64,000 nt of DNA from Orenia metallireducens (lineage in GTDB: Bacteria > Bacillota > Halanaerobiia > Halobacteroidales > Halobacteroidaceae): NCBI RefSeq assembly GCF_003001995.1, contig NZ_PVNB01000003.1:124001-188000 (forward strand), given 5' to 3'. A model generated the notes under the pieces. That model did not search any database and was not told the DNA's origin. It was given only the letters and a program-made list of their open reading frames with translations. A program made the translations under genes and the position numbers. This document shows positions 5,715 through 22,768 of this stretch, in pieces (positions within the stretch are counted from its first letter, which is position 1; the number at the start of each line of letters is the position of its first letter).

Positions 5715-6506
5715 TTAAATATCAATTAAATTTTCAACACCATAAACCACACCTTCAATTTCATCGATTCTGTTAATTGCCAGCTCTAAGCCTGGCATAA
5801 AGGATTCTCGACTGATTGAATCAAAACGTATAGTTAGCGTCTGCCCTAATCCCCCAAAGATAACCTCTTGATGTGAAACAAATCCAGGTAGGCGTACACT
5901 ATGGATATTAACTCCATTCATTTCTCCGCCACGTACCCCTGTTATCTTCTCAAGCTCTTCAACATCATCTTTATCCTCAGATAAGATCTCACCAATTAAT
6001 TCAGCCGTCTTCACAGCAGTTCCCGAAGGTGACTCTGCCTTACGATTATGATGTAACTCTATGATCTCTACATCCTTCATAAACTTTACTGCCTTTTTAG
6101 CAAATTGCATCATTAATACTGCACCAATAGCAAAGTTTGGTGCCATAATAATCGAATTCTTTCCTTGAGTTAACTTTCTTATCTCAATCAGCTCTTCTTC
6201 AGAGATACCAGTTGTCCCAACTATCATATCTATATCTTGTTCAACTACTATCTGAATATTATCAGCTACCACCTCAGGAGTAGTAAAATCAATCGCCAAA
6301 TCTGGCTTAACAGCTTCTAATAATGAAGATAAATCTTTATCTATTCTAATAGTTGGAGCATCTAACCCGAGAATCTGATGAATGTCCTCTCCAACTCTAG
6401 TGACATCAACTGCTCCTACCAATTCAAAATCTTGCTTTTGAGCAATCATCTTGACTACAGTTCTTCCCATATTACCATTTGCACCAACCACTACTATCCT
6501 CTTCAC
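5715..6506 (-). CDS. dapB: 4-hydroxy-tetrahydrodipicolinate reductase, copy 1
   Basis: Reduces the DapA product on the way to diaminopimelate. The 263-residue protein starts with the NAD(P)-binding VVVGANGNMGRTV and has the catalytic ELHHNRKAESPSGTA near residue 150. The frame is open for 34 more codons, but those translate an intergenic repeat. GTG at 6506, preceded by GGGGTGGAG, matches the N-terminus of the second copy (8474-9268), which is nearly the same length. Two complete dapB genes in one operon are unusual; both keep the catalytic motif, so neither looks dead. Confidence 0.94.
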   Translation of the reverse strand: MKRIVVVGANGNMGRTVVKMIAQKQDFELVGAVDVTRVGEDIHQILGLDAPTIRIDKDLSSLLEAVKPDLAIDFTTPEVVADNIQIVVEQDIDMIVGTTGISEEELIEIRKLTQGKNSIIMAPNFAIGAVLMMQFAKKAVKFMKDVEIIELHHNRKAESPSGTAVKTAELIGEILSEDKDDVEELEKITGVRGGEMNGVNIHSVRLPGFVSHQEVIFGGLGQTLTIRFDSISRESFMPGLELAINRIDEIEGVVYGVENLIDI

Positions 6507-9434: not shown

Positions 9435-9453
9435 ATCAAGATAAAATAGCGAT

Positions 9454-9624
9454 AAGATAGCACCCCACTAGAAAGACTAGTGACAGTTCTGTATCTATTA
9501 AATACAGACCCAACCTAATTGGCTAGCCAAGCCAAACTAGATTTCGGCAGTAACCCCTTTTATTATGGTTCATCACTGGCTAGCTCCCCATAACTACTGA
9601 TGATTCCTGCACCTCAATCTTAAT
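9454..9624 (-). promoter_or_regulatory. Lysine riboswitch (L box)
   Basis: The minus strand carries the family landmarks in order: GAGGTGC at the 5' P1 side, an AGTAG loop, AAAGGGGTTACTGCCGAAA, GGCTTGGCTAGCC, GGTTGGGTCTGTA with its hairpin, ACTGTCACTAG, and the closing GGGGTGCTATCTT. AAGAT at the 5' end pairs with ATCTT at the 3' end to close P1. A terminator follows. It should shut the dapB-to-dapA operon when lysine is high, and so also limit riboswitch-driven dipicolinate gene expression. Confidence 0.95.
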
Positions 9625-9777
9625 CCTAATATTATATTCACTTATAAACTAACAATTTGAAAATTATTAAGTCCAGTAATTCAATAATATTTTCTAATAT
9701 TTTATTCCATTTGTCAAGTTAATTTATTATATTTTCTAAATTAGCTTAAGAGTATTAATTGATAGAAATAGATAGCT
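9625..9777 (-). promoter_or_regulatory. Probable promoter region of the lysine riboswitch operon
   Basis: An AT-rich stretch. TATAAT on the minus strand (9633-9638) ends about 7 bases before the riboswitch, so transcription could begin right at P1, but its -35 is weak. A second candidate has TTGACA at 9712-9717 with a poor -10. No gene is visible here. Confidence 0.4.
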
Positions 9778-20517: not shown

Positions 20518-21342
20518 TTAAACATAAACCCCTTCTTGTGGCACTGCTATCTCATCAAAATTTACTACTAAGTTCTCCAATTGCTCCCTTAGCTTCTTCC
20601 CTTTTATAGGTAATCCATGGCTTGAAATCAACATCTCTGGATTTAAGTCTTTAATAGTCTTTACTGAGTTCTTAGCTGAATCCCAATCGGTAGTAAAATA
20701 AGCAGGAGGACCATTAAGTTCTTTCTCCTTATTTAAAACAGCTTCCGCAGAGTCCTGCTTTAAAGTAGTGATTGCATCTCCAGCTATTAAAATTCTATCC
20801 TCATCCCTAAATAAAGATACATGCCCTGGGGTATGACCTGGTGTATGAACCCAGCGCCAGCCAAACATTCCTGGTATTCCCCCATCAGCAGGTAATGCTT
20901 GAACACGATCACCTAAGTCAATACTCTGGTTAGGAAAAGTAGGCGATATCTGTGCTATTAACCCCTCACTGACATTAGGGTCAGCAGGCGGATAATCCCT
21001 TTCTCCTTTTAGATATGGTAGCTCTAATTGATGGGCATAAATAGGTGAATTCCATTGATTAGTAAGTTCAATTATAGCTCCCACATGATCAAAGTGACCA
21101 TGGGTCAAAATGATAGCTGTAGGTTGACTACCTTTGCCAAAGTAGCTCTCTGCTTCCTTAATAATAGCTTTGGCAGTGTGTGCCATACCTGCACCAATTA
21201 AAGCCCATTCACCACTCTCAGCCTGAGGGTCTCCAACTAAAATGGCATTAACTAAAGGAAACTGTACTAAGAATATATCCTTAGTAATCTGTTGAGATGA
21301 TACTGGTTTTTTCGTTATCTCTTGCAATATATTTTTTTCCAT
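20518..21342 (-). CDS. MBL-fold metallo-hydrolase
   Basis: A 274-residue metallo-beta-lactamase fold enzyme. The metal ligands are visible: LTHGHFDHVG near residue 83, HTPGHTPGHVSL near 167, GDAI near 188, and a late SSHGLPIKG histidine. This resembles glyoxalase II or general thioester/lactone hydrolases, but the substrate cannot be named. It is a single gene on the minus strand with GGGGTGG before ATG. It is divergent from the structured RNA region at 21460-21780, with which it may share promoter space. Confidence 0.88.
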   Translation of the reverse strand: MEKNILQEITKKPVSSQQITKDIFLVQFPLVNAILVGDPQAESGEWALIGAGMAHTAKAIIKEAESYFGKGSQPTAIILTHGHFDHVGAIIELTNQWNSPIYAHQLELPYLKGERDYPPADPNVSEGLIAQISPTFPNQSIDLGDRVQALPADGGIPGMFGWRWVHTPGHTPGHVSLFRDEDRILIAGDAITTLKQDSAEAVLNKEKELNGPPAYFTTDWDSAKNSVKTIKDLNPEMLISSHGLPIKGKKLREQLENLVVNFDEIAVPQEGVYV

Positions 21343-21459: not shown

Positions 21460-21489
21460 TTGATTCAATTAACTATATTATGATATAAT
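21460..21489 (+). promoter_or_regulatory. Sigma-A-like promoter of the structured RNA
   Basis: TTGATT (21460-21465), 18-base spacer, TATAAT (21484-21489). Transcription would begin near 21496, just before the hairpin region. Confidence 0.6.
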
Positions 21490-21495
21490 TGGAAT

Positions 21496-21778
21496 ATAAA
21501 AGTTAAGGGAGGTTCTATAAGATGATTATTACTACTTGCTAATTGATTTTCATAACTGAAAATTAATTCAAGAGAAGTTTTTGAAACACCTAATTTATTA
21601 GGTTTATTTGTCATGCACTTCTTTTGAGTAACAAGTAGCAGGGCTCATCTTATAGAACTAAAATTAAAACTTTACTTTTTGATTATATGGCTAAGATATT
21701 GACCTTAATTTGTCATATTCACATAGAAAAGTATTAATTTTAGACTGTAAGTAGGTGTAGCCTATTTACAGTCTTTTT
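21496..21778 (+). ncRNA. Candidate structured noncoding RNA of unknown family
   Basis: A 14-bp outer stem (21512-21525 with 21645-21658) and a second stem CTACTTG/CAAGTAG (21532-21538 with 21632-21638) are separated by a 6x6 internal loop. They enclose two arms: AATTGATTTTC/GAAAATTAATT (21541-21568) and a 10-bp CAAGAGAAGT/ACTTCTTTTG stem (21569-21626) topped by ACCTAA/TTAGGT. This makes a three-way junction. A promoter lies just upstream and an intrinsic terminator at 21743-21777. A six-codon ORF (MIITTC) starts at 21521 inside the stem. It could be a free RNA, or a leader regulating the GNAT gene at 21860. I recognise no known riboswitch core. Confidence 0.6.
21743..21777 (+). terminator. 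Terminator of the structured RNA
   Basis: GACTGTAAGTAGG, 5-base loop, CCTATTTACAGTC, then TTTTTCT. It lies 85 bases ahead of the GNAT start, so the RNA could either end here or regulate read-through. Confidence 0.88.
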
Positions 21779-21859
21779 CTGTTCTATAACAACTTAATAA
21801 ATTAGGGAAGAGAGATTGAAATTATAAAATTGAATGACCATAATCAGGAGGTTATAAAT

Positions 21860-22768
21860 ATGACGATTAAGCTTAGACCTTATAATCATGAAGAAGATTA
21901 TAATTTAGTTGGAAATTTTTTAATTGAAACTTATCAGCCAGGTAAAGAAATTATCAATTGGATGCAGACACGCTGGGAATATATGTTCCATCATCCTTAT
22001 TTATTTGAAAAGGGATTAAATAAATATCTTGATAAAATTGGGATTTGGGAAGATGAAGGCAAAATTGTTGGCGTAGCAAATTTTGAACATCATTTAGGAA
22101 CGGTTTATGTCCATATCAATCCTGAGTACCATAAATTAAAGGCTGAAATACTAGAATATGCTCAAAAGAACTTAACAGGAATATCAGATAAAGGTAAGCC
22201 CTATATAAGTGTTTATATCAAAGATAACGATACTGAATTTGAAGCTATTGCTGAATCTATGGGCTTTGAAAAAGGAGACCAGTATCTAGAAGCTATGTCC
22301 CAGTATCAAATCCCTGAAATCTTTCCAGAGATTAGTCTACCAGAAGGATTTAAACTAAAGAGTTTGGCTGATGATAATGATTTGGATAAGGTCAATAGAG
22401 TGCTGTGGAGGGGTTTTGACCATCAAGGTGAACCTAACCCAGATTTAACAGGTCGTAAGCTGATGCAATCTGCACCTAACTATAGAAAAGACTTAAATAT
22501 TATAGTCGAAGCTCCTACTGGAGAGTTTGTATCCTACTGTGGAATGTGGTATGACCCAGTTAATCAAGTAGGCTATGTTGAACCAGTAGCCACTGACCCA
22601 GACTATCGCATGATGGGGCTTGGCAAAGCAGCTGTCTTAGAAGGAATTAGAAGATGTGGTAAATTAGGAGCTACTGTTGCCTATGTAGCTACAGATAAAA
22701 AGTTCTACTTAGCAATTGGCTTTGAAAAATTATTTGATAGATATCCTTGGTTTAAAGAATTAAAATAA
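21860..22768 (+). CDS. GNAT-family acetyltransferase
   Basis: A 302-residue protein that appears to hold two GNAT folds. The second has the acetyl-CoA loop region VEPVATDPDYRMMGLGKAAVLEG near residue 242, a clear R/Q-x-x-G-x-G/A type site. The first (RPYNHEEDYNLVGNFL...) is weaker. The substrate is unknown. The ATG at 21860 lies 8 bases after AGGAGG; a longer TTG-initiated frame is discarded. The gene follows the structured RNA and its terminator on the same strand, so it may be under that element's control. Confidence 0.88.
   Translation: MTIKLRPYNHEEDYNLVGNFLIETYQPGKEIINWMQTRWEYMFHHPYLFEKGLNKYLDKIGIWEDEGKIVGVANFEHHLGTVYVHINPEYHKLKAEILEYAQKNLTGISDKGKPYISVYIKDNDTEFEAIAESMGFEKGDQYLEAMSQYQIPEIFPEISLPEGFKLKSLADDNDLDKVNRVLWRGFDHQGEPNPDLTGRKLMQSAPNYRKDLNIIVEAPTGEFVSYCGMWYDPVNQVGYVEPVATDPDYRMMGLGKAAVLEGIRRCGKLGATVAYVATDKKFYLAIGFEKLFDRYPWFKELK

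Follow-up and report, generated by a model that had tools for sequence, protein, structure and literature searches.

The region upstream of the tandem-GNAT gene

The window analysed here is a 64,000-nt stretch of Orenia metallireducens DNA. In it, a gene for a tandem-GNAT acetyltransferase and a divergently oriented gene for a metallo-beta-lactamase-fold protein (20518-21342, minus strand) are separated by a region with a sigma-A-type promoter, a Shine-Dalgarno (SD) sequence with a six-codon upstream open reading frame (uORF), a three-way RNA junction, an AT-rich hairpin and an intrinsic terminator (Table 1). A preliminary description of this DNA had listed the promoter, a 14-bp outer stem, a 6 x 6 internal loop, a further stem, two arms and a classical terminator. 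The promoter lies where it had been placed, and folding recovered the loop, the further stem and both arms. The outer stem exists too, at a length of 15 bp. The terminator is strong and is separated from the junction by the AT-rich hairpin. The SD and uORF had been overlooked; because of them, the RNA can be taken as a probable attenuator of the ribosome-mediated kind rather than as unassigned.

Table 1. Positions of the elements upstream of the GNAT gene, numbered within the window
Feature	Position	Strand	Basis or remark
Sigma-A-type promoter, TTGATT-N18-TATAAT, TGn before -10	21460..21489	+	Scored 10/12
SD of uORF, GGGAGG	21507..21512	+	Direct reading; SD in every relative
Outer stem P1, 15 bp	21511-21525 (5' strand) with 21645-21659	+	Folding; two-sided changes in relatives
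uORF, ATG ATT ATT ACT ACT TGC TAA (MIITTC*), six codons	21522..21542	+	Conserved in relatives
Internal loop, 6 x 6, two weak pairs within	21526-21531 / 21639-21644	+	Folding
Inner stem P2, 7 bp	21532-21538 (CUACUUG) with 21632-21638 (CAAGUAG)	+	Folding
Arm P3 (hairpin)	21544-21565	+	Folding, relatives
Arm P4: apical hairpin ACCUAAUUUAUUAGGU and asymmetric loop	21566-21629	+	Folding, relatives
3' strands of P2 and P1	21632..21659	+	P1 part CUUAUAG (21649-21655) is the proposed antiterminator strand
AT-rich hairpin P5, junction-terminator gap	~21660-21741	+	Folding; proposed antiterminator apex
Intrinsic terminator and U-tract	21742..21780 (stem 21742-21774, 15 pairs)	+	5' arm contains CUGUAAG
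SD of GNAT gene, AGGAGG	21846..21851	+	Direct reading
Tandem-GNAT acetyltransferase gene	21860..22768	+	Pfam PF00583/PF13508; proposed controlled gene

The junction as a whole spans 21511-21659, and the GNAT gene starts downstream of the terminator. The pairing of the junction had been thought hard to explain by chance, and this is borne out by folding. The segment 21500-21665 reaches -52.9 kcal/mol compared with -27.2 +/- 3.5 kcal/mol in 200 shuffles (z -7.3; no shuffle folded as well), and the whole transcript (21496-21780) has a z of -8.35 against dinucleotide shuffles. The SD and the uORF, 9 nt apart, together make up the junction's 5' strand: the 5' strand of P1 contains the end of the SD, the spacer and the start codon, and that of P2 corresponds to uORF codons 4-6. 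All these parts apart from the spacer are predicted to be paired in the window (mostly so in the other intact relatives described below), in a manner exclusive with a bound ribosome. When both strands of the window were scanned for an SD with an ORF of 3-12 codons and, at this distance, a promoter scoring at least 9, only this site was found; at a score of at least 10, Markov resampling leads one to expect 0.03 such sites per strand.

None of the 4227 Rfam models reaches its gathering cut-off at this locus, and a sensitive search (E up to 10) returned just chance matches to microRNAs and snoRNAs, in agreement with the earlier view that no known riboswitch core fits. Like the RNA described here, 6S RNA (RF00013) is about 180 nt long and extensively paired, with an internal bubble. 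Identity with 6S RNA was rejected because that of this genome lies elsewhere (G000:C24:52487-52668, 100.8 bits, its only match); the 6S covariance model has no match at this locus. In the window as a whole, the one Rfam family to reach its gathering score is a lysine riboswitch (9450-9625, minus strand, 120.6 bits).

The predicted fold of the GNAT protein (pLDDT 90) has its best solved matches among tandem GNATs (MAB_4324, MshD and others, Z 18-20); this likeness names no substrate.

Relatives in other genomes

The genome of the window (G000) was compared with those of two other species of the same genus (G001 and G002). In G001, the element is found at the same place, between the divergent metallo-beta-lactamase-fold gene and the GNAT gene. 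G002 lacks both genes and the RNA alike. The RNA of G001 is about 90% identical to that of the window, with identical promoter boxes and spacing, and the stretches flanking the terminator only 40-50%; P5 keeps its arms there and has its apex partly deleted. The G001 uORF reads MIITTY* and starts with GTG. Its codon 6 is changed from TGC to TAC, and this is matched by a change from C to T in the stem partner, so that a G-C pair becomes A-U and the stem is kept. The last pair of P2 is accordingly G-C in G000 and A-U in G001, and it is G-U in G285a and G285b (see below).

Several side observations concern the neighbourhood of the element. The metallo-beta-lactamase-fold proteins of the window and of G001 (L047:8957-9781) are 92% identical. 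The GNAT gene is followed by a transposase-like gene in G001 (L047:5948-7477) and by a LysM/cell-wall hydrolase gene in the window. Directly 3' of the terminator (21782-21806), GTTCTATAA and CTTAATAAATTAGG are complementary to approximately 21650-21659 and to the apical hairpin of P4 (21589-21602); this complementarity is largely kept in G001 and was not found in G285. In the same region, CCTAATTTATTAGG is also a near-perfect palindrome.

Using a covariance model built from the window and G001 sequences, 398 genomes of the phylum were searched. Two copies were retrieved in G285 (E 3e-6 and 6e-4), and a second model added two more, giving four in total. One G285 copy carries ATG ATA ATT ACT ATT TGC TAA (MIITIC) before a SnoaL-like gene, and another carries ATG ATA GTT ACT ACT TGC TAA (MIVTTC) before a nucleotidyltransferase gene, both with an SD. 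A copy detected with the second model has MIITTC before a GNAT of the window's family. The truncated copy (L054:1501-1642) has an intact MIVTTC uORF and has lost the 3' half of the junction; it leads directly into the terminator and then to an endonuclease/phosphatase-like (exonuclease III-like) gene. A search with the uORF pattern identified one copy in G151, MIITTC*, before a GNAT gene. G285 and G151 belong to two genera of another class than that of the window.

The exact uORF pattern has six matches in the same 398 genomes, namely the window, G285 (four) and G151 (one), all of which carry an SD and a promoter, and the reversed control pattern has two, in unrelated genomes. When the pattern was loosened and the search confined to the 59 genomes of the class to which the window belongs, only the window, G001 and one match in G034 were retrieved. 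The last was taken as chance, as it lies antisense within an ABC binding-protein gene and has no SD.

Two further sites are incomplete. A second G151 copy (L062:5630-5650, gene downstream at 5927) is decayed: its start is ATA, its stop CAA and its terminator interrupted, so that start, stop and terminator were lost together. In a Clostridia MAG (L010:2942-2962), an SD and MSITTR* stand directly before a 51%-identical GNAT, 29 nt after TATAAT, in a leader with neither junction nor terminator. ORFs of 13 codons that resembled uORFs ahead of other clostridial GNATs were rejected since they lie within a regulator gene. BLAST matches in L003 and L004 are short, the former resembling coding sequence. 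Plasmids, phages and viral contigs yielded no relatives; one 53-nt plasmid match (E 7e-3) was disregarded.

Seven loci thus remain, apart from the decayed copy and L010: the window, G001, four in G285 and one in G151. At all of them, in four genomes of two classes, the uORF and its SD are conserved. The uORF consensus is M-I-[IV]-T-[TI]-[CY]-stop. The start varies between ATG and GTG only, codon 2 between the synonymous ATT and ATA, codon 3 between Ile and Val, codon 5 between Thr and Ile and codon 6 between Cys and Tyr; codon 4 is Thr in every copy and the stop is never lost. Since the P2 strand is kept both as codons and as stem, part of this conservation could be structural. In each case, 29-33 nt lie between the end of the -10 box of the best promoter-like pair and the uORF; this box matches TATAAT at all six positions in five loci. 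Every uORF is separated from a co-directional gene by a terminator, located 83-220 nt after the uORF start, whose 5' arm contains CUGUAA (six loci) or CAGUAA (G001). The genes behind the leader encode GNATs (four loci, 37-79% identity to that of the window, which is included in the count), a nucleotidyltransferase, a SnoaL-like and a phosphatase-like protein.

The junction is kept in all copies except the truncated one. In an alignment of four sequences, 97.5% of the cells for the named pairs hold standard pairs; sliding the partners lowers this to 40-56%. Five pairs are changed on both sides, and the covariation score is reached by 1 of 500 shuffles; as the counted structure was the consensus of this very alignment and the four sequences include two that are closely related, this is good rather than final evidence. 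The preliminary description had named a lack of compensatory changes in homologues as grounds for abandoning the structure. Such changes are present: P1 is largely rewritten among relatives with pairing retained. G285c and G151 align poorly, and conservation of their junction letters is poor outside the uORF strand and the strand paired with it; the inner stem and the arms are formed in their own predicted folds, the outer stem being weaker. Loop letters of the junction are conserved within the G000/G001 and G285a/b groups.

Proposed attenuation and its alternatives

The preliminary description had allowed for either a free regulatory RNA or a leader of the GNAT gene. The leader is favoured, since a co-directional gene follows the terminator at seven of seven loci in four genomes and two classes, and the folded RNA very probably represents the 5' start of the GNAT messenger. 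On comparison of the sequences, promoter, SD with uORF, junction, terminator and their position in cis are established, each with its conservation between species. It is highly likely that we are dealing with a cis leader whose uORF is functional, and likely that the presence of a ribosome on it exerts control, either through the terminator or through translation of the gene. The element is best read as representing a new family of attenuator leaders that carry a uORF, narrow in distribution and with a mechanism of known kind. For the GNAT mRNA, we assign a probability of about 0.7 to ribosome-mediated transcription attenuation.

Attenuation would operate as follows. Transcription would start about 22-25 nt upstream of the uORF. 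When the six codons MIITTC are read freely and the ribosome leaves, nascent RNA would fold into the three-way junction, which would tie up the 3' strand of P1 and allow the terminator to form; transcription would then stop at about 21780, leaving a short transcript about 280 nt long. Arrest of a ribosome on the uORF, for which an antibiotic acting on ribosomes is the likeliest cause and another block of translation the alternative, would leave P1 and P2 with their 5' strands covered. CUUAUAG, once released, could then pair with CUGUAAG in the 5' arm of the terminator, extending P5 into an antiterminator, and polymerase would continue into the GNAT gene.

To model the uORF-blocked state, the leader was folded as far as the middle of the terminator. 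Under this condition, 12 of the 16 nt of the terminator 5' arm pair with the P1 3' strand in the window, compared with four, paired elsewhere, when the uORF is free. The pairing is CUUAUAG/CUGUAAG in the window and AUUAUAG/CUGUAAU in G151, longer in G285c and shorter in G001; in G285a and G285b it can hardly be made out. Compared with 200 shuffled terminator arms, the antiterminator energy is not significant (22/200 as good in the window, 48-175/200 in the others). The full equilibrium fold retains the terminator whether or not the uORF is blocked; antitermination would therefore have to rely on kinetics. For these two reasons the antiterminator is something that we infer, as we do uORF translation, stalling as the signal and the identity of the inducer.

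As to the last, an antibiotic directed at the ribosome has about an even chance of being the natural signal, and the suggestion is a guess because the SnoaL-like and exonuclease III-like genes are not typical resistance genes. Phenicols and oxazolidinones stall ribosomes best with Ala as the penultimate residue and less with Ser or Thr (PMC8987054). Lincosamides and pleuromutilins are considered to act on the short uORFs MIN and MRI by stalling the ribosome during initiation or immediately afterwards (PMC10201436). By analogy, either the phenicol/oxazolidinone type of stalling, given the invariant Thr4, which would be the penultimate residue when Cys/Tyr6 is incoming, or the initiation type could apply. 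A text search of the literature for MIITTC, MIVTTC, MIITIC and MIITTY retrieved no paper, the sole match being an 1852 scan.

The uORF might instead control translation or stability of the downstream mRNA, in the manner of ermC or cat, with the terminator as a leaky constitutive brake. Persistence of the terminator in folding with a blocked uORF is consistent with this, as are the predicted pairing of the 3' end of the GNAT SD (21850-21855) and the cplR and vmlR leaders, which combine both layers (PMC10201436, PMC9226507). However, most of the GNAT SD (21846-21849) is predicted to be open, no conserved hairpin over the SD of the gene was seen, and the terminator is the strongest conserved element before each gene, which makes this explanation unlikely.

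It is still less probable that the element is a free-standing, trans-acting RNA of about 280 nt, with a separate promoter for GNAT and an incidental uORF. Such an RNA would be in keeping with the strong promoter and terminator of its own, the latter formed in every equilibrium fold, and a weak promoter-like site (21816-21844) could serve GNAT. But the region between terminator and GNAT in which this site lies is poorly conserved (about 50%), a same-strand gene follows at all seven loci, four times from the same GNAT family, and the SD, start and stop of the uORF are conserved between classes.

Codons 2-5 are Ile-Ile/Val-Thr-Thr/Ile in all copies, which would suit stalling at low levels of charged tRNA, as in biosynthetic operons. 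This kind of sensing appears improbable: there are just two codons each of Ile and Thr, and none of the controlled genes (acetyltransferase, nucleotidyltransferase and others) is biosynthetic for either amino acid. Least probable of all is a metabolite-binding riboswitch with the junction as aptamer and a secondary role for the uORF, as the large conserved junction, the loop letters kept within both groups and a transcription-terminating expression platform are set against the lack of an Rfam riboswitch match, the poor conservation of the other junction letters in G285c and G151, and L010, which retains the uORF without a junction.

Known leaders and significance

Ribosome-mediated attenuation would place the element beside several described leaders. 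In the vmlR leader of B. subtilis, the role of anti-antiterminator falls to the stem-loop that carries the uORF, and the hairpin after it forms the tip of the antiterminator (PMC9226507). Common to both leaders, each of a few hundred nt, are a uORF in the first structure, a middle hairpin at the (here proposed) antiterminator apex and an intrinsic terminator (PMC9226507). They differ in the uORF (MIITTC, six codons, here; MIN there), in the first structure, which is a three-way junction here, and in the downstream genes (GNAT, nucleotidyltransferase and others here, ABC-F there); no sequence relation was seen.

The cplR leader of Clostridioides/Clostridium, with the uORF MR[I/M], likewise has an SD-preceded uORF, a premature terminator and a single controlled gene (PMC10201436). 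Its uORF is different, and its terminator hairpin also sequesters the SD of the gene; here, another 85 nt come after the terminator. Antibiotic induction was demonstrated for cplR (PMC10201436) and is proposed for the present element. The Listeria rli80-hflXr leader, as far as covered by the portion of the report compared, is also a ribosome-dependent attenuator with anti-antiterminator, antiterminator and terminator; its uORF has 14 codons with an RLR motif, and that portion does not mention a three-way junction (PMC6310831).

A leader family that senses stalled ribosomes indicates the purpose of the gene behind it. We tentatively suggest, at somewhat less than even odds, that the MIxTxC peptide within its three-way junction is a portable antibiotic-sensing module, copied before unrelated genes (tandem GNAT, nucleotidyltransferase, SnoaL-like and phosphatase-like) in two classes of anaerobes, where it would mark unrecognised translation-stress or drug-resistance genes. 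If so, M-I-[IV]-T-[TI]-[CY] would be a concrete peptide for drug-specific stalling, and a three-way-junction design would be added to attenuators that, in the parts of the literature compared here, have so far been described as simple stem-loops. The element would also point to candidate resistance or translation-protection enzymes, the tandem GNAT and the nucleotidyltransferase among them, in little-studied anaerobes.
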